Source of the DNA: Pseudoxanthomonas indica
GTDB taxonomy: Bacteria > Pseudomonadota > Gammaproteobacteria > Xanthomonadales > Xanthomonadaceae
Assembly: GCF_900167565.1 (NCBI RefSeq)
Contig: NZ_FUZV01000001.1
Coordinates: forward strand, 1 to 64,000
Length of the DNA stretch: 64,000 nucleotides
Direction of reading: 5' to 3'
Position numbers and translations under genes: made by a program. The first letter of the stretch is position 1. Each line of letters begins with the position of its first letter. Shown in pieces: positions 5,318 through 53,879 of the stretch. The notes under the pieces were generated by a model. The model was given only the letters and a program-made list of their open reading frames with translations, searched no databases and was not told the origin of the DNA.

Positions 5318-6754
5318 TCAGCTCCCCAGCTGGAAGGCAACCCACAAGTAGGCGCAAGCCACCATCAACCAACCGATGAATGCGGCGACCGACCAGAACC
5401 CGGCAGGAAACTGGATGCTCTTGCCACCGATGGTCAGCGCAACCGGACACTGACCACCCGAGTTCCCGCCGAACAGATTGGGATTGAAGTCGCTGTTGTC
5501 GAACTCGTGGAAGATGGCGTTCGGGTCGACGTTGCCATGGCCGTCATCGGTGCCCAAGTTGCGCAAGGCATCGACCTCGGCCTGCTTCAACGCGGTCATG
5601 TGATCTTTGATACCGGTCTCGCCGCTACCGCCACCACCGCCGTCAAGGTTCAACTTTTCAAGCGCGCAAGTAGACCGCCACTGCATCAGCAGCTGGCTGT
5701 ATTCCAAGGCGTCGCAATTGTCGCCAGTGCATACCGGCATCGCCGCGCAACCGCCGCCGGAAATGTTGACGCGCCGACGCGTATTGCAGTCGATTCGCCA
5801 TTGAATCTTTACTTGAATGCAGGCAATCGCACTGCCTGAGCATGACGGGGGCGCGTTGCAGCTATCTCCGCCTGACGCCGTCTCCTTGTCAGGATCGTTA
5901 TCCGGATTGTCGTCGTCTTCGTCTGCCTTTCCGTCACCATCAGAGTCCTTTCCGCAGGTGCCATTCTCTCTGGGGGCCTCTCCCGCTGCACACTGCCCTT
6001 CGCCCGGCAGACAAGAACCTTGCGGACTCTTAATTTGCCCAGCAGGACAGGTGTCGCTGGCTTCCTCGCATTGCCCTTGCTGATTTACCTTCATGCCCGC
6101 CGGACACGCATTGCCACATGCACCGGTCACCGCATCTTTGACCTGGCCTTCTTCGCACACAACTTCCGGAGTTTCGCAGGCTTGAATGTAGGCGTTCCAG
6201 TACGACCCACCGCCCAGCGCCCCGCAATCTTCCTGTAGTTCGGGCGTCGTGCACACACCGGCCGCGCCGTGATTGAAGCTGCCTGTAAACGTCCCATCCG
6301 AGTTGGCGTGCCACTTTTGCGTGCAGCCATCGGTGCACGTAAACGACCCGTTACGAATTTTTCCTACCGCCGTCGACGTTGGCGGCGAGCCCGTGTAGCT
6401 GGGCTTAGCCGAACAGGTCTGCGCTGCTGGATAGCGATGGTTGCGACCGCCCAGGGTGCCGTAAAGAGCGCACGCGCCCCAGACAAGCGAATTCTTGTTT
6501 TGCACTTCACACACATAGCCCGGAAGGCTGCTGATGTTGGGATTGAAGGTGCAACGGTACTGCGCCCAAACAGTAGGTGCGCCTGCCATGTTCGCCGCGC
6601 CGCCAGCGTTACAGCCCGCGTATGCAGCGCCCTGATTCGGATAGGTGGCCTGGGCGTGTGCCTTTCCCAAACCCATCCATGCCAGCAGTAGCGCCACGAG
6701 CACGTAGGCCACGCGGCGCGCAATAGCATTGGCAAGGATGCGCTTGAAATCCAT
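5318..6754 (-). CDS. Adsorption protein (pIII-like)
   Basis: 478 residues. Signal peptide (positive start, core VAYVLVALLLAWMGL, cleavage after AHA near residue 30). Then come a cysteine-rich extracellular part with repeated CPAG/C..GQ units, an Asp-rich calcium-type segment (DSDGDGKADEDDD), further C-pairs, a Gly linker and a C-terminal membrane anchor (WSVAAFIGWLMVACAYLWVAF). This is the architecture of inovirus pIII, which binds the pilus and anchors the virion tip. The ATG overlaps the stop of the 29-residue upstream ORF by one base. Confidence 0.85.
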   Translation of the reverse strand: MDFKRILANAIARRVAYVLVALLLAWMGLGKAHAQATYPNQGAAYAGCNAGGAANMAGAPTVWAQYRCTFNPNISSLPGYVCEVQNKNSLVWGACALYGTLGGRNHRYPAAQTCSAKPSYTGSPPTSTAVGKIRNGSFTCTDGCTQKWHANSDGTFTGSFNHGAAGVCTTPELQEDCGALGGGSYWNAYIQACETPEVVCEEGQVKDAVTGACGNACPAGMKVNQQGQCEEASDTCPAGQIKSPQGSCLPGEGQCAAGEAPRENGTCGKDSDGDGKADEDDDNPDNDPDKETASGGDSCNAPPSCSGSAIACIQVKIQWRIDCNTRRRVNISGGGCAAMPVCTGDNCDALEYSQLLMQWRSTCALEKLNLDGGGGGSGETGIKDHMTALKQAEVDALRNLGTDDGHGNVDPNAIFHEFDNSDFNPNLFGGNSGGQCPVALTIGGKSIQFPAGFWSVAAFIGWLMVACAYLWVAFQLGS

Positions 6755-6843
6755 CAGTCCCAGTCGCCTGCAATGATGTACGAGGCCATGACCCACCACA
6801 GCAGGCACAGCGTCCCAAACAGTTGGTCGAAGTCAGTTCCCAT
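6754..6843 (-). CDS. 29-residue hydrophobic peptide, candidate pVII/pIX-type minor coat
   Basis: Encodes MGTDFDQLFGTLCLLWWV then MASYIIAGDWD. It is one membrane helix with acidic ends, the size and character of pVII/pIX minor tip proteins. It lies between the coat gene and pIII, and its stop overlaps the pIII start (TGATG). It has no Shine-Dalgarno sequence because the T-rich end of the preceding terminator abuts the ATG, so expression would need read-through plus unusual initiation. Confidence 0.5.
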   Translation of the reverse strand: MGTDFDQLFGTLCLLWWVMASYIIAGDWD

Positions 6844-6873
6844 AGGAAGAAAGCGGGGTGCCCTACCCCCGCT
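6844..6873 (-). terminator. Terminator after the major coat gene
   Basis: On the minus strand a 7-bp GC stem AGCGGGG / CCCCGCT (arms 6867-6873 and 6852-6858) is followed by TTTCTTCCT. It starts 7 bp after the pVIII stop. A strong terminator behind gene VIII, giving abundant coat mRNA and low read-through into pIII, is a classic filamentous-phage arrangement. Confidence 0.7.
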
Positions 6874-6880
6874 ACGTGAC

Positions 6881-7114
6881 TCAGGTCTTCGGCTTCAGCA
6901 GGCCGGTGGCGCGCAGCGTCCACAGGACTACGATGAAGGCGATGGTCGCCGCGACGGCTTCGGCACCGTACTCATCGAACAGGCCGGTGATGGTCGACAG
7001 CGCACCGCTGCCACCGCCACCGCCGGCAAAGGCCATCGGGGCGAGGGCCATGGCGGTCAGGCCAGCGACCAGGGCGGATACACGGGACTTGGACTTCGTG
7101 ACGAGATGACGCAT
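6881..7114 (-). CDS. Major coat protein (pVIII-like)
   Basis: 77-residue precursor. A basic start, hydrophobic core and AFA cleavage site (residues about 1-30) are followed by a mature protein of about 47 residues: Gly-rich start, amphipathic acidic helix, membrane helix AATIAFIVVLWTLRATGLL and a basic C-terminus KPKT that would contact DNA. This layout is diagnostic for inovirus coat proteins. Confidence 0.9.
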   Translation of the reverse strand: MRHLVTKSKSRVSALVAGLTAMALAPMAFAGGGGGSGALSTITGLFDEYGAEAVAATIAFIVVLWTLRATGLLKPKT

Positions 7115-7125
7115 GGGATTGCTCC

Positions 7126-7323
7126 TTACAAGTTGCGTTGGGGTTTGAGCAGCCGCTTGGCAGCGACCACCGAGAACAGGCTGGCGAAAAATGCGATCCC
7201 GACGACGTTGGCCTGCTCAACGGTCGGGAGGACGTTCACCCACGTCGACTGCTCCACCCACGCCTGCGCCAAGCAGGTTTGCGTGGACGAATCAAAATCG
7301 ACGCAGGTGAGAACCTTGGGCAT
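7126..7323 (-). CDS. Small phage membrane protein upstream of coat gene
   Basis: 65 residues: a polar N-terminus with two cysteines (TCVDFDSSTQTC), one hydrophobic helix VVGIAFFASLFSVVAA and a basic end KRLLKPQRNL similar in style to coat-like proteins. It lies between the ssDNA-binding protein and pVIII, a position often occupied by a minor virion protein. Exact role unknown. Confidence 0.65.
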   Translation of the reverse strand: MPKVLTCVDFDSSTQTCLAQAWVEQSTWVNVLPTVEQANVVGIAFFASLFSVVAAKRLLKPQRNL

Positions 7324-29547: not shown

Positions 29548-29809
29548 GACTCGTTCCCCGTGGTGATGTGATGGGCTGCAGGCGCCTCCCGCGCACTGCG
29601 CTGGCCCCAAGTGAATGGCATATACAGGCGTACGTCCAGCAGGTTCCGCGGGTCCGGCCAATGTCATAGACTATTGATTCAAAAGGCCATATTCGGGTGT
29701 CTTCAGAATATTGCAGTTTTATTCGATGTGAATTCCGCAGAATCTGCTGTTGATGTCCATCAACTGTGCAGAAACTGCGGTCACCACAGCAGCCGACCGG
29801 AGGAACCGC
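29548..29809. promoter_or_regulatory. Divergent promoter region of the Lrp gene and the receptor operon
   Basis: 262 bp, distinctly AT-richer than its surroundings in the middle. It contains GAATA-N9-TATTC (29706-29724) and GCAGA-A-TCTGC (29737-29747), dyads of the kind bound by Lrp/AsnC regulators. The candidate operator is placed symmetrically between the divergent genes. Assignment is by position. Confidence 0.45.
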
Positions 29810-30832: not shown

Positions 30833-30846
30833 TTGATTGAAGTCAA
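30833..30846 (+). promoter_or_regulatory. FNR/ANR box upstream of the 48-residue peptide gene
   Basis: TTGAT-TGAA-GTCAA, one mismatch from the FNR consensus. Centred 63 bp before the ATG at 30903. A -10-like TAGGCT at 30868-30873 is at the spacing expected for a class II FNR promoter. Confidence 0.75.
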
Positions 30847-38858: not shown

Positions 38859-41129
38859 ATGCAATCAACCCGAAGACTGTGGGCAGGCCTGGCGGCCCTG
38901 TTGCTGGTCTCCTTCTCGGTACTGCTCTGGGTGGGAGGCGAAGTCCACCGACAGGCTCCTCCCCTGCCCGAACGTGTCGTGGATACGGAAGGCAACCTGC
39001 TCTACACCCGCCAGGACATCGAAGTCGGCCGGCAGGTCTGGCAATCGATTGGCGGGCAGCAACTGGGTTCCATCTGGGGCCATGGCGGCTACGTTGCACC
39101 TGACTGGGGCGCGGACTGGCTGCATCGCGAAGCCGAGGCAATCCAGGATGGCTGGGCCCGGCGCGAGGCCAATGTCGAAAGCTACAAGCAGCTCGATGAA
39201 GCCACTCGCGCGGCCTATGCCAAGCGGGTCCAGACCGTACTGCGGCCCAACCGCTACGAGGCCAGCACCGGTACGATCACGGTGGATGTTGATCGCGCTG
39301 CGGCCATGCGGGAGGTAGCTCACCACTATGAGCAACTATTCGGCGACACGCCGGAACTGGCTCCCTTGCGCGAAGCCTACGCCATGCGCAATGGCACCGT
39401 GGCCGATGCCGCGCACCGCCACCAGCTGACGGCCTTCTATTGGTGGGCAGCGTGGTCTTCGGTGACCGAGCGCCCCGACTCGAAAATCAGCTACACAGCC
39501 AACTGGCCGGCCGACGAAATGGTGGGCAATACGCCGCCTTCGAATCTGTTCCTGTGGACGGTCTTCAGCGTGCTGTTCCTGTTGGCAGGTATCGGCTTGC
39601 TGGGCTGGCACTACGCGGTCAACCATGGCGATGAGATCGCAACAGTCCTGCCCAAACGGGATCCGCTGGCGGAGTTGCGCATCACCCCGTCGATGCGTGC
39701 CACCGGCAAGTACTTCTGGGTGGTGTGCGCCTTGTTCCTGGTGCAGATCCTGCTGGGCGCAATGACTGCCCACTATCAGGTGGAAGGCCAGGAAGCCTAT
39801 GGCTTCGCGCTGGCCGATGTCCTGCCCTACTCGCTCACACGCACCTGGCATACCCAGTTGGCAGTGCTGTGGATTGCCACCGCCTGGCTGGGCATGGGCT
39901 TGTATATCGCACCGGCGATTTCCGGCCACGAACCGAAGTTCCAGCGCCTGGGCGTACACGCCCTCTGGGTCTGCCTGTTGATCATCGTGGTGGGCGCCTT
40001 TGCCGGCCAATGGTTCGCGGTGATGCAGAAGATGGGGCTGGAGCACAACTTCTGGTTTGGTCACCAGGGTTGGGAATACGTGGATCTTGGCCGCTTCTGG
40101 CAATGGTTCCTTTTCATCGGCCTGGTGCTGTGGCTGTCGCTGGTGGGTCGCGCCCTGTGGCCCGCACTGCGCAAGGGCAGCGAATCACGCTCCATCGTCA
40201 CCCTGCTCTTCCTGTCCACCGTGGCCATTGGCCTGTTCTACGCCGCCGGCCTGATGTGGGGCGAACACACCCACCTCTCGATGGTCGAGTACTGGCGCTG
40301 GTGGGTAGTGCATCTGTGGGTCGAAGGCTTCTTTGAAGTGTTCGCCGTGGCGGTCATCGCGTTCCTGTTTACCCGCCTGGGCCTGCTGCAGATTCGGTCC
40401 GCCACCATGGCGGTGCTGTTTGCCACCATCGTGTTCCTGTCCGGTGGCGTGCTGGGTACGCTGCATCACCTCTACTTCACCGGTACGCCGACCGCGGTCA
40501 TTGCCCTGGGTGCAAGTTTCTCCGCACTGGAAGTGGTGCCGTTGGCGTATGTCGGGTTCGAGGCCTATCACAGCTACAAGATGGGCAAAGCCACACCGTG
40601 GATGGCGCGCTACCGCTGGCCGATCATGTTCTTCATCGCGGTGTCGTTCTGGAACCTGGTGGGTGCGGGCCTGTTCGGCTTCCTGATCAATCCGCCGCTG
40701 TCGCTGTACTACATGCAGGGTCTGAACCTGACGCCGACCCATGGCCACACCGCTCTGTTTGGCGTGTACGGCATGCTCGGCATCGGCCTGATGCTGTTCT
40801 GCCTGCGCGGCCTGAAGCCGGACGTGGTGTGGAACGAGAAGCTGCTGAAGACCGCGTTCTGGGCCATGAACATCGGTTTGAGCTTGATGGCGCTGCTGAC
40901 CCTGTTGCCGCTGGGCCTCCTGCAGTTGCGAGCAGCGTTGGAGCACGGCTACTGGTATGCGCGCTCTGCCGAGTTCATGCAGCAACCCCTGATCGATCTG
41001 CTGGTCTGGATGCGCGTTCCCGGCGACACCATCTTCAGCATCGGCGCGGTGGCCTTGGTCTGGTTCGTGTTCCGCCTGTGGGTGGCGCCGCGGCGCGAGG
41101 CCGCGCTGCCCGCCCCGCAAGCAAGCTGA
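38859..41129 (+). CDS. norB: Quinol-dependent nitric oxide reductase (qNor)
   Basis: 756 residues. Single-subunit type: an N-terminal membrane helix and soluble extension (replacing NorC but without a CxxCH haem site), then a 12-helix haem-copper-type core with conserved His (RTWHTQL, HNFWFGHQGWEY, GEHTHLSMVEYWRW, GTLHHLY, HGHTALFGVYG). Reduces 2 NO to N2O using quinol. AGGAG lies about 8 nt before ATG 38859; in-frame upstream sequence overlaps fnr and is not coding. Monocistronic with a strong terminator. Confidence 0.95.
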   Translation: MQSTRRLWAGLAALLLVSFSVLLWVGGEVHRQAPPLPERVVDTEGNLLYTRQDIEVGRQVWQSIGGQQLGSIWGHGGYVAPDWGADWLHREAEAIQDGWARREANVESYKQLDEATRAAYAKRVQTVLRPNRYEASTGTITVDVDRAAAMREVAHHYEQLFGDTPELAPLREAYAMRNGTVADAAHRHQLTAFYWWAAWSSVTERPDSKISYTANWPADEMVGNTPPSNLFLWTVFSVLFLLAGIGLLGWHYAVNHGDEIATVLPKRDPLAELRITPSMRATGKYFWVVCALFLVQILLGAMTAHYQVEGQEAYGFALADVLPYSLTRTWHTQLAVLWIATAWLGMGLYIAPAISGHEPKFQRLGVHALWVCLLIIVVGAFAGQWFAVMQKMGLEHNFWFGHQGWEYVDLGRFWQWFLFIGLVLWLSLVGRALWPALRKGSESRSIVTLLFLSTVAIGLFYAAGLMWGEHTHLSMVEYWRWWVVHLWVEGFFEVFAVAVIAFLFTRLGLLQIRSATMAVLFATIVFLSGGVLGTLHHLYFTGTPTAVIALGASFSALEVVPLAYVGFEAYHSYKMGKATPWMARYRWPIMFFIAVSFWNLVGAGLFGFLINPPLSLYYMQGLNLTPTHGHTALFGVYGMLGIGLMLFCLRGLKPDVVWNEKLLKTAFWAMNIGLSLMALLTLLPLGLLQLRAALEHGYWYARSAEFMQQPLIDLLVWMRVPGDTIFSIGAVALVWFVFRLWVAPRREAALPAPQAS

Positions 41130-41144
41130 GAAAATCGTCGTCAG

Positions 41145-41182
41145 AAAAAGGAAGGGCCGCTTGCAGCGGCCCTTCTTCTTTT
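41145..41182. terminator. Bidirectional terminator
   Basis: Stem GAAGGGCCGC / GCGGCCCTTC (41151-41160, 41166-41175), preceded by AAAAAGG and followed by TTCTTTT. It lies between the convergent norB and small HMA-like gene and can serve both. Confidence 0.85.
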
Positions 41183-41220: not shown

Positions 41221-41463
41221 TCAGTGCGAGCAACACCCGCAGCATTCCTGATCGCTGCCCTCGCCATCGCCGCAGCTGGTGACGGGCTCACCCAAGGCAG
41301 CCAGAATCGTCGACACGCGCTCGCTGGGCAGGGTCGTGTAAACGCTGAGGCGCCCGGAATCCTCATCCCACAGGATTTCTGCTTCGGGGTCCCATTCTCG
41401 AAGGGCGTCGGTCATCGCTTGCTGGCGACGTTGGCGGAGGTCGGGCGTATCGGAGCGGGTCAT
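41221..41463 (-). CDS. Small HMA-like protein with Cys-rich metal-binding tail (paralogue A)
   Basis: 80 residues: a helical start, then DPEAEILWDEDSGRLSVY, VSTILAALGEPV and a tail C-GDGEGSDQ-ECCGCCSH. The alternating strand/helix pattern looks like a ferredoxin-like HMA domain, but the metal-binding cysteines are at the C-terminus. It aligns without gaps over 41 residues to the protein at 49700-49939. AGGA lies 7 nt before ATG 41463. Its own FNR box (41537-41550) puts it in the denitrification regulon. A copper-handling or metal-chaperone role is inference. Confidence 0.6.
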   Translation of the reverse strand: MTRSDTPDLRQRRQQAMTDALREWDPEAEILWDEDSGRLSVYTTLPSERVSTILAALGEPVTSCGDGEGSDQECCGCCSH

Positions 41464-41536
41464 GAAATTCCTGTAGGCAAGGAGGCGGCACGGTGGCCAG
41501 TACCGGCAATCTAGGTAAACCCGTCCCGCACGACAT

Positions 41537-41581
41537 TGACCGGAATCAAGACGACGCGGCCTGGTGTTGACCCAGGTCAAT
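41537..41581. promoter_or_regulatory. Two FNR/ANR boxes in the divergent HMA-like/nnrS promoter
   Basis: TTGAC-CGGA-ATCAA at 41537-41550 and TTGAC-CCAG-GTCAA at 41568-41581. The first is suitably placed for the leftward gene (TAGATT as -10 near 41508-41513). The second is centred 40.5 bp before the nnrS ATG. Confidence 0.85.
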
Positions 41582-41614
41582 GCCCGACTCGCCGTCGCCG
41601 CACACACTGCGCGC

Positions 41615-42862
41615 ATGCCCACGATCCCCCTGCCCACACCTCCCACGTCGGTACCGGCACCGGTATCGATCCGTCAGCTGCTGCAGGCGCCACATCGGCT
41701 GATGTTCTTCATCGGCGCCGGCAACCTGATGCTTGCGATGCTGTGGTGGGCCTGCTGGCTGGCGGCGCAGTATTCCGGAGCCTGGTCGATGCCGGAAACT
41801 CCCATCTATGCCGGCTGGCTGCATGCCTTTGTCATGCAATACCTGGTCCTGCCCAGTTTCATTTTCGGATTCCTGTTGACCGTGTTCCCGCGCTGGATCG
41901 GCCAACCGGACCTGCCACGCTGGCGCTATGTGCCCGTGGGGGCCGGTCTGATGGGCGGGCAGTTGGCCGTGCTGCTGGCTACGCTCGGTTGGTCAGCGGG
42001 ACTGACGGTAGGCGTCATTCTGGCGTTGGGTGGCTGGTCCGCCGCACTAGGCACCCTCGGACAGGTCCTCAGGCGCGACGGTGGCCCCACCTGGCATGCG
42101 CGCTCCTGTTATGCAGCGCTGTTGCTGGGGTGGTTGGGGCTGGCTTTGTATCTGGGATTCCTGATCACCGGCGATGCGATGCTCGCCTTCGCCAGCATCA
42201 AACTCGGTGGCATCGGCATGTTGCTGCCGATCTACCTGAGCGTGGCGCATCGCATGTTTCCGTTCTTCGCCGGCAACGCGATTCAGGGCTACCGGCCATG
42301 GCGCCCCTTGGCTTGGTTGGGGGCGGTCTGGGTGGCCGCGATGGTTCATCTGGGCCTGGAACTACTGCACGCGTATGCCTGGTTATGGTTGCCCGACGCC
42401 GCCCTTCTGGCGCTTACCGGCCAGGCCTTGTGGCGTTGGTGGCCACGTGCGCGCATGCCGGGTTTGCTGGCCGTACTGTTCTTCGGCACGGCATGGATGC
42501 CAATCACCTTTGCGCTCTACATCATTCAGAGCCTAGTCTATCTGGCAACCGGCGAGTTCGTGCTGGGCCGTGCGCCCATGCATGCGATGTTCATAGGATT
42601 CTTCGGCAGCGTACTGGTGGCCATGGTCACCCGCGTCACCCAGGGGCATTCTGGTCGCCCGCTGGCGATGCCGCGCGTGGCGTGGTTTGCATTCCTCGCC
42701 CTGCAAGCCGTCGCGGTCATGCGGGTGGTCGCCGAACTCGTGCCGGATGGCATGTTGTGGCAATGCCTGGCGGCGTTTGCCTGGTTGCTGGCGTTGGCGC
42801 CATGGGTCAGCCGAATAGGCGCGATCTACCTCAGCCCGCGCGCCGATGGGCGACCGGGGTGA
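41615..42862 (+). CDS. nnrS: NnrS-family membrane protein
   Basis: 415 residues, about 12 membrane helices with conserved His (GWLHAFVMQYLVLPSFIFGFLLT split by motifs, YLSVAHRMFPFF, HAMFIGFFGSVLVAMVTRVTQGHSGRP). NnrS is a haem/Cu membrane protein protecting against NO-induced damage and typical of NO-regulated operons. ATG 41615 sits at the predicted FNR-dependent +1, with no ribosome site. First gene of a five-gene operon with 4-10 bp overlaps. Confidence 0.9.
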   Translation: MPTIPLPTPPTSVPAPVSIRQLLQAPHRLMFFIGAGNLMLAMLWWACWLAAQYSGAWSMPETPIYAGWLHAFVMQYLVLPSFIFGFLLTVFPRWIGQPDLPRWRYVPVGAGLMGGQLAVLLATLGWSAGLTVGVILALGGWSAALGTLGQVLRRDGGPTWHARSCYAALLLGWLGLALYLGFLITGDAMLAFASIKLGGIGMLLPIYLSVAHRMFPFFAGNAIQGYRPWRPLAWLGAVWVAAMVHLGLELLHAYAWLWLPDAALLALTGQALWRWWPRARMPGLLAVLFFGTAWMPITFALYIIQSLVYLATGEFVLGRAPMHAMFIGFFGSVLVAMVTRVTQGHSGRPLAMPRVAWFAFLALQAVAVMRVVAELVPDGMLWQCLAAFAWLLALAPWVSRIGAIYLSPRADGRPG

Positions 42863-42866
42863 GCGC

Positions 42867-43262
42867 ATGATGACGTTCTATCCCAGCATCAAACACCTGC
42901 ACATGGCCGTGGCATTGACCAGCGGTGGATTGTTCGCGTTGCGTGGCGCCGGGCTCCTGCTGGATCAGCGCTGGCCGCGACATGCGCTGCTGCGCTATCT
43001 GAGCTACAGCGTGGATACCGTCCTGCTGACCGCGGCGCTGTTCCTGCTGACCTTGTTGCCGGCAGCGCTGTTCGCCAATGGCTGGCTGCTGGTCAAGGTG
43101 GGATTAGTCGTCGCTTACATCGCGCTGGGCACGTTGGCCTTCCAGGTCGGGCGCGGGTTGCGCGCTCGCGCCACGCTGTGGCTGCTTGCCCTGCTCTGCT
43201 TCGTGCAGATCTATGGCATTGCGCGGACGCATGATCCGCTGGGATGGCTGCTATGGCTATGA
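42867..43262 (+). CDS. SirB2-family membrane protein
   Basis: 131 residues, four membrane helices, beginning with YPSIKHLHMAVALTSGGLFALRG, matching SirB2. Often adjacent to nnrS and denitrification genes; function unknown. It starts 4 bp after the nnrS stop; ATG 42870 is an equal alternative. Confidence 0.82.
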   Translation: MMTFYPSIKHLHMAVALTSGGLFALRGAGLLLDQRWPRHALLRYLSYSVDTVLLTAALFLLTLLPAALFANGWLLVKVGLVVAYIALGTLAFQVGRGLRARATLWLLALLCFVQIYGIARTHDPLGWLLWL

Positions 43263-43420
43263 GCTTCAACGAACTATCGAGCACTCTGGATCTCTGCGCA
43301 CCGTGGACGCCAACGCTGGGAGAGTGCCTGGACGCAGCCGGCTGCGATCGCATTTGCCCCACGCATGCCGGCGTCGACCCGGATGACGCCTCTGCGCTGG
43401 AGCCTGCCCCATGTCGCTGA
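43259..43420 (+). CDS. 53-residue cysteine-rich protein in the nnrS operon
   Basis: Reads MSFNELSSTLDLCAPWTPTL, then G-E-C, GC-DRIC and a final PCR: five cysteines in 53 residues, with DLC-x9-C-x5-C-x3-C resembling a small metal or Fe-S site. The ATG overlaps the SirB2 stop (ATGA) and its stop overlaps the next gene by 10 bp, so it fits the operon perfectly. It is short and easily missed. No family recognised. Confidence 0.6.
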   Translation: MSFNELSSTLDLCAPWTPTLGECLDAAGCDRICPTHAGVDPDDASALEPAPCR

Positions 43421-43662
43421 TGCAGCTGGATTTGCGCAACCTGCCCGCGCCCGAGCCGATGGAATGCGTGATCGCCGCGCTACGGCAACTCAAGCGCGGC
43501 CGACACATCGAGGCGCTTACGCCGATGCGCCCCCTGCCCTTGATGGCCATGCTGGATGACTGGGGATATGCCTACAGCGTGGAGAATCTGCCGGGCGGGC
43601 AGGCGCGCATCTTCATTGCCCACTGCGAAGACCAGGCCAGCCTGCCGCACTGCGATGCATGA
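43411..43662 (+). CDS. DUF2249 (TusA-like) protein
   Basis: 83 residues: LDLRNLPAPEPMECVIAALR then RHIEALTPMRPLPLMAMLDDW, the TusA-like fold of DUF2249. The Cys in PMECVIAAL is at the place of the TusA active Cys; a further Cys pair lies at the C-terminus (HCEDQASLPHC). Frequently encoded with SirB2/NnrS and NO-related genes; function not established. ATG 43411 (or 43420). Confidence 0.8.
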   Translation: MSLMQLDLRNLPAPEPMECVIAALRQLKRGRHIEALTPMRPLPLMAMLDDWGYAYSVENLPGGQARIFIAHCEDQASLPHCDA

Positions 43663-44939
43663 GTGGGCTGGACCTCGGACAGGCACCGCCTCCGGTTGAA
43701 CCATGGCGGTTCCTTCGCAGCTCCCTCATCTGGGGCGTGGCCGCCGGCGCATGGTGGGTGTGGCAAGGCGAGTGGGCGCTAACCTCGCGCTGGGCGCCGC
43801 CCACCCTGGTGTCCGTGCACGCGTGGGTGCTCGGCGTGCTGGGCAACGCCATGCTGGGAAGCCTGCTGCAGTTTCTGCCGGTGGCGGCCAACACCCGTCT
43901 GAGCCTGCCGCTACCTGCACTGTGGCTGCATCGTGGCTTCAACCTCGGCGTGATGGCGTTGCTGCTGTTCTTCGTGAGGCCCCACACCGTGCTGGGCATC
44001 TCCGCCCTGCTGCTGCTCGCTGGCAGCCTGGGCGTGTTCGCTCTGCGTTCCCTGCTTGCATTGCACGCGGTCATCCCTGTGGATGCATTGCAGCGTGGCA
44101 TCGCAATGTCGCTGTGGTTCCTTCTGGCGACCGTCGTCCTGGGTGGCGCTTCGGCGATGGTCCTCACTGGTCACCTGTCGATCCCGCTTGAGCGCATCGT
44201 CAATCTGCACGCCGCCCTGGGCCTTGGGGGTTGGTGCGTCGGCCTGCTGGCTGCGGTGGCTGCCGTCACCGTGCCGATGTTCCAGGGTGCGCGGGTCTTG
44301 ACCCGCCGTGCGCAGCGAATCTGGGGGAACGGATGGCGTGCGGCGATGGGTTTGACGGTGCTTGCAGCCACTGCGCGGCAAGCTGATAGTCCGCTGATGC
44401 TGGGTATCAGCCTGCCTTGTGCGGGACTGGCCTGCATGATTCTGTGGATGCAGGTCCGTTCCCCTCATCCGCGCAATCTTCCGCTGCGGCTGGCCTGGCG
44501 GCTCGGCGCCTTCTTTCTGTGGCTTCCGTTGCTCTTGCCGGTAGTACTGCCACTGATGCCCGTCAGTGCAACATCCCCTGCTGCCTCGTTGGTGGCCGGC
44601 ACTGCCGTCGTGGTGGCCGGCCTGCCCCTGCTGGTGCTCGGCATGCAGCTGGAAATCGTGCCCTTCCTGGCATGGATCGAGCTGCGCCAACGCCACCCCC
44701 GCGGGGTGCGGGTGCCGGGTGTCGGCCGTCTGCTGGATTCCACGCACAAGCAGCGCCTTGTGTTGATCCACGTGGCGGCGGCCGTGGCTGCGCTAATTGC
44801 CGCATTCGCGGCGAGGACAACGGTGATCGCAGGCGTATTGATCATGCTTGCCTACGCCGGCTCGCTTCTCAGGTTTGGCGCCGTATGGCGCAATGCGCGG
44901 GCCTGGCAGCCCGCGCCCGAATCTCCGCGCAGCCAATAA
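43659..44939 (+). CDS. NnrS-like polytopic membrane protein
   Basis: 426 residues, about 12 membrane helices, with His-bearing segments in helices (VSVHAWVLGVLGNAMLGSLLQ, LWLHRGFNLGV, IVNLHAALGLGGWCVG, LALHAV) and a loop EIVPFLAWIELRQRHPRG. The His pattern recalls NnrS and haem-copper oxidase subunit I without a clear match. Last gene of the nnrS operon, 4-bp overlap with DUF2249. Possibly a second haem protein of NO metabolism; uncertain. Confidence 0.65.
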   Translation: MSGLDLGQAPPPVEPWRFLRSSLIWGVAAGAWWVWQGEWALTSRWAPPTLVSVHAWVLGVLGNAMLGSLLQFLPVAANTRLSLPLPALWLHRGFNLGVMALLLFFVRPHTVLGISALLLLAGSLGVFALRSLLALHAVIPVDALQRGIAMSLWFLLATVVLGGASAMVLTGHLSIPLERIVNLHAALGLGGWCVGLLAAVAAVTVPMFQGARVLTRRAQRIWGNGWRAAMGLTVLAATARQADSPLMLGISLPCAGLACMILWMQVRSPHPRNLPLRLAWRLGAFFLWLPLLLPVVLPLMPVSATSPAASLVAGTAVVVAGLPLLVLGMQLEIVPFLAWIELRQRHPRGVRVPGVGRLLDSTHKQRLVLIHVAAAVAALIAAFAARTTVIAGVLIMLAYAGSLLRFGAVWRNARAWQPAPESPRSQ

Positions 44940-44951
44940 ACGCCGGCAGGC

Positions 44952-47018
44952 TCAATAGCTCAGATTGACCTTGAGCCACAAGGTGCGCCCCGGCTCATGG
45001 ATGCGCACCGGATCCGCCGGATAACCAAAGGCGCTGTTGCCACCCAGATTGAGGTGTTCGCTGTAGTCACGATCAAACAGGTTGTCGACGCCCGCGCTCA
45101 CCTGCACGCGTTCGCTGTACCTGTACGCCGCATTGGCGGAGAACACGGCAAAGCCGGCACTGGGCCCCAAATCCTGGCCGACCACATTGCCCGTCCCCGG
45201 GTTGACACGATCCTGTTGCGCGACCACCCGCAGCAACGTTCCCCACGAGAACTTGCCGCGCTCCTGCGCCAGTGACAGGCGCAGTTCCAGCGGCGGCATC
45301 TGCGGCATCGCTCCTTCGTTCTTCAGATCGCCCCAGGCATAGGCCAACACACTGCCCACCTTCAGGCCGCGACCCGGTCGCCATTCAACCCCGGCTTCAC
45401 CGCCGTGGATGTCAGCATCGACATTGCGGGCACGCGTTGCCTTCATGCCCATGCCTCCGGACAGGTAGTCGAACAGCACGAAGTCCTGCACCCGCCCGGC
45501 ATACAGCGATACCCAGGCATCGACCTGGCGCCCCTCGTACTGCGCGCCGATGTCCAACTGGGTCGTCTTCTCCGGCCGTACGCCCGCAAACGCATTGGCT
45601 GCGCCCACCGGGCCGCGCGTGGCCGAAAACAGCTCCCAGTAATCGGGCATCCGCGCGGTGTGGCCCACCCCTGCATGGAAGCCCAGACCCTGGTGATCGT
45701 ATTCGTAGCGGACAAAACCACTGGGCAACGTGTCCTGGCGGCGCTGTCCTGCGGTTGGATTGGGCATGGGCATCATGCCTCCTGTGCGTTTGCGCAGGTC
45801 CTGCACCTCGGCCCGGTCCAGGCGCAGGCCCGACATGAGGTGGTGATGTTCGGTGATGTGCCAATGCGATTCGGCAAACACGCCATAGGTCTGGAACTTC
45901 GCGTCGACGGTCCAAGGTTGCAGTCGATACGCACCGCGCCCCATCGCACTGCGCTGGCTGTGGCGGCTGTCGCGCAGGTCGGCGCCGGCGGTGATCTCCC
46001 AGCGATCCTTCTGCCAGGTGGCGGCGACGCGACCGCCCTGCACATCCTGCGCGACATTGCTGGCCATCGGCATCGGCATGCTGCTGTGCGGGTCGGGCTG
46101 ACGCAGGCTGTAGTTGTCCATCACATGGTCGACCTGGTTGCGGTAGACGTTGGCGACCAGCGCATCCAGCACGCCTCCCATGTGTTTCTTCTCGAAGCGC
46201 AGGCCCAGGCTGTCGCGATCAAAGGTCGCCCCATCCATGCCGCGGCCCGCGTAGCGTGCCTGTGCATCACCCTGGCCGGCGCTGAGTTCCAGCACCGTAT
46301 CGGCGTCGGGCGTCCAGCCAATGGCGGCATCGGCATTCCACTTGCGCCAGGCCGAAGGAACTTCGTTGCCCGCCCCGTCCTGATAGTCGTCGGACTCGGA
46401 ACGATTGGCCGCCACCCGCACATAGCCTTGCGGTCGGCCAAAGACCGCATCAACCACCTGATCATTGCGATTGCGGCTGCCCATCAGGGCGCTGCCCGAG
46501 AGGCGCGATTCGGGACGATCGAAGTACGGCACTTCGCGTTCGAAGCGGATCGTGCCAGCCGATGCACCGCCGCCCCACAGAACGCTCTGCGGGCCCTTGA
46601 TGACAATCAGGCGGTCGTAGGTTTCCGGCGCGATGTAGGACATGGCGTTGTCCATGCGCGAAGGACATGCACCGCTCAAGGCGCCATCGTTGGTCAACAG
46701 GTTCAGGCGCGAACCAAACATGCCGCGCAGGACCGGATCGCCATTGGTGCCGCCGCTGCGCAGGACGGAGAAGCCGGGAATGGTCTTGAGGTAATCGGCG
46801 CCGTCACTGGCGGGAACCGGTTGCCGTGGCAGCTTGGGATCGGTGACGAAGGTGGTGGCCAGGCTGGGCGCCACGCCAATGACCACGACCCCGTCGAGCT
46901 GGGTTGCGGCGGCGGCATGTCCTTCGTGCGACTGATCGTTGGGCTGGGCGATGGCGGTGCTGACCATCAGCCAAGGCAGCGCTATCGCCAGTGCAACGGC
47001 AAGCGGATGTCTTTCCAT
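44952..47018 (-). CDS. TonB-dependent copper receptor, OprC/NosA-like
   Basis: 688 residues. Signal peptide ([17 protein letters not shown]), plug domain with [20 protein letters not shown] and [15 protein letters not shown], and Met-rich copper-type loops ([19 protein letters not shown]). The barrel ends LWLKVNLSY. The family takes up copper in pseudomonads and is needed for Cu enzymes of denitrification. Here it would feed NirK and azurin. Divergent from nirK with an FNR box between. Confidence 0.88.
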
Positions 47019-47104
47019 GGACGTGCTCTCTTGGTGAGTTGCAACATCTTTGGCCCGCTGCCGATGCATCGGTATGCGACAGAGCGTCGCATTGTCAGCG
47101 TGGC

Positions 47105-47157
47105 TTGACGCGGATCAAGAGAATCACATTCCCCCTTGCTCGATTGATTCTGATCAA
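47105..47157. promoter_or_regulatory. Two FNR/ANR boxes between the copper receptor and nirK
   Basis: TTGAC-GCGG-ATCAA (47105-47118) and a perfect consensus TTGAT-TCTG-ATCAA (47144-47157). The perfect site predicts a nirK +1 near 47192 with TACCTT as -10 (47181-47186), giving a leader of about 36 nt. The weaker site faces the receptor gene. Confidence 0.9.
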
Positions 47158-47227
47158 CGCCCCTGCAGGGAGTGCGCGCCTACCTTGCACGCAACGGCCA
47201 CGAGGCCATGACACAGGGATACGCGTA

Positions 47228-48295
47228 ATGAAACGCTGCAAACCGCTTCTTCTCTCGAGCGCCCTGGGCTGCGTGCTCGGCTTGCTGGCCACGGGCCAGG
47301 CGATGGCTGCGCCGGGCGCAGATCGGAGCACGCCCATGGAAACCATCCAGGCCGTGCTGACGGCGCCGCCGATGGTGCCGCCGCCGATCACCCGCAAGAC
47401 GCCCGCCAAGGTGGTGGTCGATCTGGAAGTGATTGAAAAGGACATGCAGATTTCCGACGGCGTGACCTACAACTTCTGGACGTTCGGTGGTTCGGTGCCG
47501 GGCAGCTTCATCCGCGTGCGCCAGGGCGACACGGTGGAGTTCCACCTCAAGAACGCCCACGACTCGAACATGGCGCACAACATCGACCTGCACGCCGTCA
47601 CCGGCACGGGCGGCGGCGCCGAAGCCACCTTTACCCTGCCCGGCCACAAGACGCAGTTCACCTTCAAGGCGCTCAACCCCGGCCTGTACGTCTACCACTG
47701 CGCGATGCCGCCCGTCGGCATGCACGTGGCCAACGGCATGTACGGCTTGATCCTGGTGGAGCCAGAAGAGGGCCTGCCCAAGGTCGACAAGGAGTTCTAC
47801 GTGATGCAGGGCGACTTCTATACCGAGGGCGCGCATGGTGATCCCGGCCTGCAACCTTTCAGCCTGGAAAAGGCCATCGACGAGCATCCGACCTACGTCG
47901 TCTTCAATGGCGCCGAAGGCTCGATGACGGGCGACAAGGCGCTGACCGCCAAGGCCGGCGAAACCATCCGCATGTTTGTCGGCAACGGCGGTCCCAACCT
48001 GGTGTCGAGCTTCCATGTGATCGGCGAGATCTTCGACAAGGTCTATACCGAAGGTGGCAGCAAGGTGCAGGAGAACGTGCAGACCACGCTGGTACCGGCA
48101 GGCGGCTCGACGATTGTCGAATTCAAGGCCGACGTGCCGGGCAACTTCATCCTCGTCGACCACAGCCTGTTCCGCACCTTCCACAAGGGCTCGCTGGGCA
48201 TCCTGAAAGTCGACGGTGACAAGAAGCCGGAGATCTACACCGGCCAGCAGGCCAGCGGCGAATACGCTGCGCCCGCCGACAAGCCGGCCAAGTGA
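47228..48295 (+). CDS. nirK: Copper-containing nitrite reductase
   Basis: 355 residues with a signal peptide ([15 protein letters not shown]). Two cupredoxin domains. Type 1 Cu ligands H117, C158, H166 and M171; type 2 Cu ligands H122, H157 and H312; catalytic D120 and H263. Reduces nitrite to NO in the periplasm, probably fed by the azurin at 53421. ATG 47228. Followed within 4 bp by nirV. Confidence 0.96.
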
Positions 48296-48299
48296 TGCC

Positions 48300-49064
48300 A
48301 TGAAACGCGCGTTGACCGGCGTGGCCTGTCTGCTCGCAGTCGCCTCCACCCTTGCGGCGGAGGCGGCTTACGTCACGTTGCCGGGCGGCTCGTTTGTTTC
48401 GGCCATCCGCTACGAAGAATCGTCCGCTCCCCTCCAGGTGGCGCCATACCGGATGATGAGCAAGCCTGTCAGCAACGCCGACTTTGCCCGCTTCCTCCAC
48501 GAATACCCGCAGTGGCGACGAGATCGTTTGCCGGCCGTGTTTTCCAGTCCTGGCTACCTGAGCCATTGGCAGTCAGCCGAATCCGTCGGCGAACAGGCAC
48601 TAGACGACGCTCCGGTGACCCGGATCAACTGGTACGCCGCTGATGCCTATTGCCGCAGTCAGCAGGCGCGGCTGCCCACCTTCCTGGAATGGGAGTTCGC
48701 CGCCGCTGCTGACGCCCAGCAGGTCGACGCACGCCGCAATCCGCAACGTCGCCTTCGCCTGCTGGAAGACGCCACCCCGCGCGCCATCGATGCACAACCC
48801 CAGGCAGCCGCCAACGTCTACGGCGTGCAGGGCCTGCACAGCGCGCATTGGGAATGGGCCGATGACTACGCCTCCCTACTCAGCGCCGAAGACCGTCGCG
48901 GTGGCGAGGATGGCGATGCACTCAAGTTCTGCGGCGCGACCTCGCTGGCCTTCAACGATCGTGAGCAGTACGCGGTCGTGAAGCGCTTTGCCGTGCTGTC
49001 CGCGCTCAAACCCGGCGACACGCTCGCCAACCTCGGATTTCGTTGTGCCAGGAGTTCACCATGA
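48300..49064 (+). CDS. nirV: NirV, formylglycine-generating-enzyme-like protein
   Basis: 254 residues: signal peptide (VACLLAVASTLAAEA) and FGE-sulfatase fold with MSKPVSNADFARFLHEYPQW, WYAADAYCRSQQARLPTFLEWEFAA, and NLGFRCARS at the end. NirV homologues accompany nirK in many denitrifiers; function unclear. It lacks the full cysteine pair arrangement of true formylglycine enzymes as far as can be judged. Overlaps sco by 4 bp. Confidence 0.85.
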   Translation: MKRALTGVACLLAVASTLAAEAAYVTLPGGSFVSAIRYEESSAPLQVAPYRMMSKPVSNADFARFLHEYPQWRRDRLPAVFSSPGYLSHWQSAESVGEQALDDAPVTRINWYAADAYCRSQQARLPTFLEWEFAAAADAQQVDARRNPQRRLRLLEDATPRAIDAQPQAAANVYGVQGLHSAHWEWADDYASLLSAEDRRGGEDGDALKFCGATSLAFNDREQYAVVKRFAVLSALKPGDTLANLGFRCARSSP

Positions 49065-49651
49065 GACACGTGCTTCCTTCGCTGTTGCTTGCCGCCCTGT
49101 TCGCCACCAGCGTGGGCCGGGTCTGCGCGCAGGCGTTGCCGGGCGATTCGGTGTATCACGTCGATGCCCAGGTCACCAATGCACAAGGCCGGACACAAGC
49201 CTGGCGCTCACTGCGCGGTCAGCCGCAAGTGGTGTCGATGTTCTACAGCGGTTGCCATGTGATGTGTCCGCTCATCCTGGAAAACGCAAAGGGCGTGCAG
49301 AAGCAGTTGACCGCCGCCGAACGTAATCGCCTCGGACTGACCATGATCAGCCTGGATCCCGCGCATGACACGCCCGCGGTGTTGGCCGAAACCGCGCGCA
49401 ATCATCGGCTGCCGGCGCACTGGCAGTTGCTGCGGCCGGGTGAAGATGAGGTGCGCGCCTTGGCCAGCGTGCTGGATGTGCGGTATCGCGTCCGCGAGGA
49501 CGGCAGCATCAATCACACCAGCGTGCTGATTCTGTTGGATGCGGATGGGCGCATCCTGGCGCGCAGCGAGGTGGCCAGTGCGGCACCGGATCCGGCTTTC
49601 ATCACCGCCGTGCGACAAGCCCTCGCCCAGTCCGCCACGCCCGTCCATTGA
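49061..49651 (+). CDS. SCO1/SenC-type copper-binding thioredoxin-fold protein
   Basis: 196 residues: signal peptide to about residue 24, thioredoxin fold with Cu ligands C65 and C69 (SGCHVMCP) and H152 (INHTS). Delivers Cu or reduces cysteines for copper-site assembly in the periplasm. Position in the nirK operon suggests a role in NirK maturation. Confidence 0.88.
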   Translation: MRHVLPSLLLAALFATSVGRVCAQALPGDSVYHVDAQVTNAQGRTQAWRSLRGQPQVVSMFYSGCHVMCPLILENAKGVQKQLTAAERNRLGLTMISLDPAHDTPAVLAETARNHRLPAHWQLLRPGEDEVRALASVLDVRYRVREDGSINHTSVLILLDADGRILARSEVASAAPDPAFITAVRQALAQSATPVH

Positions 49652-49699
49652 TCCCGACCGCCGCCCGGGTGGCGGCGCCGTCTCCGTTGCGAGGTTGTC

Positions 49700-49939
49700 A
49701 TGCAGTATGCGATTCCGCTGGACCACGCTGGCCTGGATCTGGTCGCCCTGGAAGCCCAGCTTCTCAATTTCGATCCGGCTGGCGTAGTGGACTACGACCC
49801 TGCCAGCGCACGCCTGCGCATCTCAACCGTGGTACTGGCAATCGAGTTGGTCTTCATCCTGGAACAGGCGGGCCATCGGGTGCCGCTCAGCCATATCGAA
49901 CACGTACCGTCGGTCTGCTGCGGCGGTTGCAGCGGCTGA
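49700..49939 (+). CDS. Small HMA-like protein with CCGGCSG tail (paralogue B)
   Basis: 79 residues: FDPAGVVDYDPASARLRIST, VFILEQAGHRV, then VPSVCCGGCSG. Gap-free similarity to the protein at 41221-41463 in a 41-residue core plus the CC-G-x-C tail. GAGG lies 7 nt before ATG 49700. Last gene of the nirK-nirV-sco unit (48 bp after sco). Co-location with two copper proteins suggests a metallochaperone; inference. Confidence 0.65.
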   Translation: MQYAIPLDHAGLDLVALEAQLLNFDPAGVVDYDPASARLRISTVVLAIELVFILEQAGHRVPLSHIEHVPSVCCGGCSG

Positions 49940-49994: not shown

Positions 49995-50008
49995 TTGATT
50001 TCAGTCAA
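49995..50008 (+). promoter_or_regulatory. FNR/ANR box of nadB
   Basis: TTGAT-TTCA-GTCAA. TAGCAT at 50031-50036 is exactly at the class II -10 position, giving a +1 near 50043. The -10 overlaps the first ATG of the nadB frame, which argues for a start at or after the GTG at 50041. Confidence 0.75.
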
Positions 50009-53300: not shown

Positions 53301-53314
53301 TTGATCTGGATCAA
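53301..53314. promoter_or_regulatory. FNR/ANR box between trHb and azurin
   Basis: Perfect consensus TTGAT-CTGG-ATCAA. It has a good -10 (TATCCT) at class II spacing towards trHb, and CAAAGT at the same spacing towards azurin. One box may serve both. Confidence 0.9.
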
Positions 53315-53420: not shown

Positions 53421-53879
53421 ATGAAATCCGCAACCACCGTTCTGCTCGGCCTGGCTCTGCTGGGTACGGCCGGTCTGGCCCACGCCGCAGGCAACTGCAC
53501 CGTCACGCTCAAGGGCGACGACGCGATGAAGTTTGATCTCAAGACCGCCACGGTCTCGGCTGCCTGCCCCACCATCACCATCGAGTTGGTCCATACCGGC
53601 AAGTTGCCGGTGACCGTGATGGGCCACAACGTGGTCATCGCCAAGACCAGCGATGTCGCAGGCGTCACTTCCGCCGCCACCAAGGCCGGCGCCGCCAACC
53701 ATTACCTGCCCAAGGGCGACGCGCGCGTCATCGCAGCCAGCGGCCTGGTGGGCGGTGGCGAGAAGACCAAGTTGACCGTGCCGGGCAAGAAGCTGACCGC
53801 CGGTGGCGACTACTCGTTCTTCTGCAGCTTCCCCGGCCACAGCACCATGATGAAGGGCAAGCTGGTCGTCACGCCGTAA
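53421..53879 (+). CDS. azu: Azurin
   Basis: 152-residue precursor with signal peptide (LLGLALLGTAGLAHAA). Cupredoxin with ligands H69 (MGHN), C135, H140 and M144 (FCSFPGHSTMMKG), and the disulfide pair C26/C49. Periplasmic electron carrier, likely donor to NirK. GGAG precedes the ATG. Confidence 0.96.
   Translation: MKSATTVLLGLALLGTAGLAHAAGNCTVTLKGDDAMKFDLKTATVSAACPTITIELVHTGKLPVTVMGHNVVIAKTSDVAGVTSAATKAGAANHYLPKGDARVIAASGLVGGGEKTKLTVPGKKLTAGGDYSFFCSFPGHSTMMKGKLVVTP

Follow-up and report, generated by a model that had tools for sequence, protein, structure and literature searches.

The denitrification island of Pseudoxanthomonas indica encodes two small proteins, here called sA and sB, which, judging by sequence and structural model, descend from HMA copper chaperones of the Atx1/CopZ/GolB kind. 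They have lost the CxxC motif of that family and end instead in a conserved cluster of cysteines, and sB-type genes occur chiefly in genomes encoding the copper nitrite reductase NirK. Both genes lie in a 64,000 nt stretch of contig NZ_FUZV01000001.1 (the window, i.e. the whole stretch of DNA analysed; the contig is 2.3 Mb and the genome 3.96 Mb), where a first-pass annotation made from the sequence had pointed out two frames with similar tails. The two frames are present, on opposite strands:

41221..41463, minus strand: sA, 80-amino-acid HMA-derived protein with a C-terminal cysteine tail, ending in ECCGCCSH
41224..41244, minus strand: sA tail, CCGCCSH (CCGGCSH or longer Cys/Gly tails in relatives)
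49700..49939, plus strand: sB, 79-amino-acid HMA-derived protein with a C-terminal cysteine tail, ending in VCCGGCSG
49916..49936, plus strand: sB tail, CCGGCSG

Our preferred reading, to which we give about an even chance, is that both proteins carry or buffer Cu(I) in the cytoplasm, are induced anaerobically, act via the tail and support NirK and azurin through a P1B copper ATPase.

Sequence comparisons indicate that sA and sB are homologous and behave as genes. In a single BLASTP comparison they align from residue 16 of each with 19 of 64 residues identical (E = 2e-6), and the only gap falls directly before the tail, so the gap-free core alignment seen by the first-pass annotation stands. 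With sB as a single query, sA-family genes were matched in two other genomes (G019, E = 4.1e-4; G020, E = 8.8e-4), and the sB profile (23 rows) matched the sA profile (15 rows) at E = 8.4e-11 with the tails and 4.5e-7 without them, against 0.21 for the reversed control. Because of these cross-genome and profile matches, the likeness goes beyond chance. Single queries returned nine database rows for sA and nine for sB, the latter including sB itself, and named homologues with 77-78% identity mark the genome as Pseudoxanthomonas-like. Codon scores are positive (6.2 for sA and 16.6 for sB). The dN/dS ratio is 0.14-0.31 in 15 sA pairs; for sB it is at most 0.37 in 39 of 66 pairs, and the 27 remaining pairs, from either side of the deepest split, have values of 0.42-0.89. 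A leader-peptide reading of sA was considered and is disfavoured, as sA is a lone gene with its own FNR/DNR-type box, convergent with the gene for quinol-type nitric oxide (NO) reductase (qNor).

No Pfam or NCBIfam model matches sA or sB, and PF00403 does not match either at its curated cut-off. When 23 sB members were scanned at E values up to 10, six families were hit by one member each, none of them HMA. The DUF2249 match in the region belongs to the neighbouring gene at 43411-43662, and neither sA nor sB matches DUF2249/TusA. In the open-access literature searched we found no paper describing the family, and one homologue (P0031) bears the database name 'HMA domain-containing protein'. By inspection the N-termini are not signal-like; the hydrophobic core stretch of sB has a mean hydropathy of 1.73. 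Interrupted sB copies were seen at two loci, L043 (about 6175-6522) and L047 (about 6814-7224), in genomes G029 and G027, with no nirK within their 14-kb neighbourhoods; one of the two adjoins azurin.

Descent from HMA proteins, which the first-pass annotation had suspected from the fold, is supported by several comparisons. Searched against PDB sequences, the sB profile found copper chaperones as its best matches, led by ScAtx1 (E = 0.006) and GolB (E = 0.0084), within a range of 0.006-0.011. The predicted structure of sB (pLDDT 89.7) follows the strand and helix order E H E E H E of the HMA beta-alpha-beta-beta-alpha-beta fold, and Foldseek ranks Atx1 and GolB first for this model. The sA model (pLDDT 71) is missing the first strand, which marks sA as the more reduced form as far as the models go. 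A domain-only profile built from nine CxxC-containing HMA proteins matched sB at 3e-13 and sA at 6.2e-11, with reversed controls at 0.02-0.22; since it was the sB and sA profiles that had picked out these nine proteins, this match is not independent of the search; the PDB matches are. The family belongs to a known kind, as a branch without a name of its own. With the Atx1/CopZ-type proteins (PF00403) such as Synechocystis ScAtx1, sB shares the predicted strand-helix order and a gap-free profile match over the domain, and intermediates connect the family with them, but sA and sB lack the first-loop CxxC and have the C-terminal CCGGC tail, anaerobic-type boxes and no Pfam match. GolB of Salmonella (PDB 4y2i), also a small stand-alone HMA protein and the second-best match type by both sequence and structure, retains CxxC and lacks a CCGGC-type tail in the alignment.

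The tail is the most conserved part of the family, far more so than the domain surface. An sB profile search found 477 homologues, and among the 120 listed, on which motifs were counted, all end in CCG[GS]C; only one (P0022) has a CxxC outside the tail (CLRC), and this is not in the HMA metal-site loop. Weaker profile matches within the same bacterial family include intermediates. Three of them (L123, L124 and L131) are HMA proteins that still have CxxC in addition to a CCGGC tail and score 45.7, 40.7 and 32.9 bits with PF00403 (cut-off 24.8), and L123 adjoins azurin and nirK. L126 resembles these three without the CxxC and falls under the cut-off at 16.3 bits; the motif is also absent from a second set (L125, L129, L132, L133 and L135) as well as from sA and sB. 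The first-pass annotation had the metal site moving to the C-terminus. The loss of the HMA site and the conservation of the C-terminal cluster agree with this, but a simple move does not, given the proteins with both sites. Because such proteins exist, the tail was probably gained before CxxC was lost. In a tree of 33 tail-less domains, sB forms one group (95/91) and the CxxC-less proteins stand in two places; the fork that sets one CxxC-less set among the CxxC proteins has a support of 93/90, under the tool's star level, and a single loss is possible. Two losses of CxxC are thus likely, not forced.

We then compared the distribution of sB with those of nitrite reductases and other denitrification genes. 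Within the bacterial family, 59 of the 149 genomes contain a high-scoring sB-type gene (62 at the outset, before the weak profile matches in G452, G493 and G511 were left out). Among 250 genomes sampled from the order, 12 belonging to three other families have one; among 369 sampled from the class, such scores appeared in only two, both from the same family. The co-occurrence with denitrification genes implied by the first-pass annotation is present across the 149 genomes: NirK above the cut-off in 52/59 genomes with sB versus 10/90 without, NnrS in 58/59 versus 30/90, and qNor in 53/59 versus 24/90. By enzyme type, sB occurs in 49/58 genomes with NirK alone, 2/16 with NirS alone, 3/4 that have the two enzymes together and 5/71 that lack them, where NirS was called in 20 of the 59 PF02239-matching genomes (E of 3.5e-89 or better) and the 39 weak matches were not counted, although 35 of them exceed Pfam's own cut-off (55 in all). 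At the genus level, NirK is found in 20 of 24 genera with sB and 4 of 30 without, and shuffling the sB labels within genera gave p = 3e-4 over eight informative genera; these genus tests correct for shared descent only in part.

This distribution bears on the main rival explanation, a nitrosative-stress thiol or iron protein whose tail would react with NO, bind iron or form dinitrosyl iron complexes, either to shield the cytoplasm or on behalf of NnrS during NO production. Several observations fit it: the cysteine-rich tail, the DNR-type boxes, the position of sA divergent from nnrS and that of sB between qNor and nnrS in deeper relatives. The presence of NnrS in all but one of the sB genomes likewise counts in its favour and weighs against a role in copper supply. 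NirS-only genomes also make NO, though, and just 2 of the 16 have sB; where qNor and NnrS occur together, NirK is present in 51 of 53 genomes with sB, versus 9 of 21 without it; and sA and sB are copper chaperones by ancestry. We regard this explanation as rather unlikely. Where the first-pass annotation left the choice between NirK and NO-handling proteins, NirK and copper are favoured and NO handling less so, because sB is far commoner in NirK-only than in NirS-only genomes.

Azurin is found in 44/59 genomes with sB and 42/90 without, an association weaker than that of NirK, and as the real partner of sB it was set aside. NirK still separates the azurin genomes (41/44 with sB versus 7/42 without), and among the 37 azurin-less genomes with any of the other genes it is present in 11/15 with sB versus 3/22 without. 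A CxxC-less intermediate (L132, around 4363), an sA copy (L050, 6734-7000) and sB copies (L109 and L110) adjoin azurin with no nirK close by, and because of these copies azurin may be a second partner.

In 35 of the 59 genomes, the contig with sB also has nirK, nnrS or qNor no more than 15 kb away. This linkage, together with the partial correction for descent, also weighs against a copper role, since physical linkage and common ancestry could be enough to keep sB with the nirK cluster. We think such hitchhiking very improbable: in the other 24 genomes sB is unlinked on the assembled contigs (in most of them the genes are on different contigs, which may hide their true distance), but NirK is present in 20 of these 24 genomes and 21 of the 24 genes have their own box, as described below.

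The genes of sA and sB look anaerobically controlled from the boxes upstream of them. In the window, the following FNR/DNR-type boxes were found:

41536..41549: box upstream of sA, its distal end 86 nt from the start of the gene
41567..41580: second box in the gap between sA and nnrS
47105-47118 and 47144-47157: two boxes in the gap between the copper receptor gene and nirK

The sA and nnrS genes have this upstream gap in common. In the window, no box was found in the 170 nt upstream of sB; the gene follows sco in the gene series behind the two boxes of the nirK gap. The FNR linkage claimed earlier for both genes is confirmed. The box resembles CTTGATnnnnATCAAG, which PMC1274295 reports as the DNR consensus at denitrification genes. 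A strict TTGAY-N4-RTCAA box is located 69-92 nt upstream in all 17 distinct sA genes examined (15 plus L050 and L130; L026 and L053 are the same gene and were counted once). Among the unlinked sB genes, allowing at most one outer mismatch, the 21 of 24 with a box within 170 nt compare with 7 of 208 other genes of the same loci (Fisher 3e-19 for 22 of the loci, 19 of them with a box; 2/2 in the other two). The three box-less genes (G535, G510 and G546) are all in genomes without NirK, and the scan at G510 had no more than 37 nt to cover. Inside denitrification clusters sB genes are mostly box-less (box in 5/33); the pattern missed four linked sB genes, of which L104 and L107 have a box and L109 and L113 are outside the count. 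HMA proteins with an SDCCGGCS tail have a one-mismatch box in 3/3 cases versus none of six other HMA proteins, and 8 of 9 CxxC-less intermediates have a box. Further FNR-type boxes in the window are located at 29750-29763, with an Lrp-like frame (29810, found by eye) 46 nt downstream, and at 30833-30846, upstream of a 48-amino-acid frame near the nap genes.

Taken in order, these steps suggest a tentative history that we hold to be possible but less probable than not: an HMA chaperone would have acquired a second, C-terminal CCGGC site, come under FNR/DNR control and then abandoned CxxC, apparently more than once, to yield a dedicated cytoplasmic copper-supply protein for NirK, with living intermediates of each step in one bacterial order.

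In the mechanism we propose, oxygen limitation would cause an FNR/DNR-type regulator to turn on sA and sB along with the copper receptor, Sco, NirK and azurin. The flexible C-terminal cysteine tail, rather than the lost CxxC loop, would hold Cu(I); sA and sB would buffer incoming Cu(I) or hand it to a P1B-type ATPase, which would export it for the assembly of periplasmic NirK and azurin. We infer copper binding, the cytoplasmic location, the ATPase partner and delivery to NirK, and Cu(I) held at the tail and either buffered or passed on to the ATPase is the simplest reading. PF00403 finds a single HMA domain in the genome. It belongs to a heavy-metal P1B ATPase (L144) whose gene adjoins ccoG and which, judging by gene order, is presumably CcoI-like; no stand-alone CopZ was found in this search. 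Because the sole PF00403 domain sits there, this ATPase is a plausible partner of sA and sB. The HMA fold could also have been reused for protein-protein contact, the tail then being a redox, zinc or copper sensor that controls maturation or transport in the island. HMA folds without a metal site serve protein contacts elsewhere, as in the integrated HMA domains of plants, and the conservation of the tail far above that of the domain surface would suit a regulatory or adaptor protein, but Pfam and NCBIfam scans found no DNA-binding or signalling domain in sA or sB, and we consider this explanation unlikely.

Two known systems resemble the proposed copper supply. AccA, of the PCuAC type, is described in PMC13006917 as a periplasmic copper carrier proposed for the NirK (AniA) of Neisseria. 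The task would be shared, but AccA is periplasmic with His/Met sites, whereas sA and sB have Cys tails and no signal-like start, and the Pfam scan found no PCuAC domain in them. CutF of Rhodobacter capsulatus (DUF2946-like) is, according to PMC8456105, a small cysteine-motif protein whose gene adjoins that of a copper enzyme and which is needed for the maturation of this enzyme. The likeness lies in its small size, its cysteine motif and its gene position, but CutF is set apart by its signal sequence, central CXXXC and proline-rich end, and sA and sB do not match DUF2946.

The neighbouring genes of the island are as follows:

38859..41129, plus strand: qNor, with a NorB cytochrome-c-like domain and COX1 (domain scan)
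41151..41175, minus strand: terminator-like hairpin between the convergent qNor and sA genes (consensus scan)
41564..42862, plus strand: nnrS (PF05940, 204 bits)
44952..47069, minus strand: TonB-dependent copper receptor, divergent from nirK (TIGR01778, 779 bits; cut-off 472)
47228..48295, plus strand: nirK, copper nitrite reductase (TIGR02376, 376 bits)
48300..49064, plus strand: FGE-sulfatase-domain protein (domain match), which we take to be nirV-like
49061..49651, plus strand: Sco (SCO1/SenC; domain match)
53421..53879, plus strand: azurin, with an FNR/DNR-type box at 53301-53314

The island also carries nap genes, hemN, an FNR-type regulator, sirB and the DUF2249 gene, and with its predicted copper receptor it is a putative unit of copper uptake and copper enzymes. 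The sA gene stands between the NO reductase gene and nnrS, and sB starts 48 nt past sco; azurin lies between sco and sB in 15 of 20 loci compared, and in deeper relatives sB is flanked by qNor and nnrS. Terminator-like sites are not enriched in the region (four found versus a mean of 5.5 in shuffles). Past sB, the segment 50008-52783 contains two genes, one L-aspartate-oxidase-like and one resembling the L-cysteine desulfhydrase Cds1, with an FNR-type box at 49995; the Cds1-like gene scores 540 bits, slightly below its cut-off of 600, and Cds1/CysK-like genes recur adjoining sB in several relatives (L109, L110, L112 and L119). The recurrence of an 88-amino-acid gene (F16) near sB at 11 loci was put down to gene order that is probably shared. 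After the DUF2249 gene, a 426-amino-acid membrane-protein-like frame at 43659-44939 has no Pfam or NCBIfam match and keeps its place in relatives. Elsewhere in the window, the segment 3223-9312 resembles filamentous phage: amid small membrane-protein-like frames it encodes a protein with a Zot domain and a replication protein akin to G2P.

The interpretation offered by the first-pass annotation largely survives, with one correction and one refinement, and is partly supported. Copper supply to NirK is settled in few bacteria. According to PMC13006917, not all bacteria with NirK have AccA or PCuAC, and those without may need no alternative chaperone; the sA/sB family is a concrete NirK-associated candidate with which to test this idea. 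The CcoI study, in its remarks on copper delivery to the P1B ATPase, invokes unidentified alternative copper donors (PMC8475189). In this family, moreover, a metal-chaperone fold has swapped its defining motif for a site in the tail, with intermediates, and its members are genes under anaerobic control that escape current domain models as a group.

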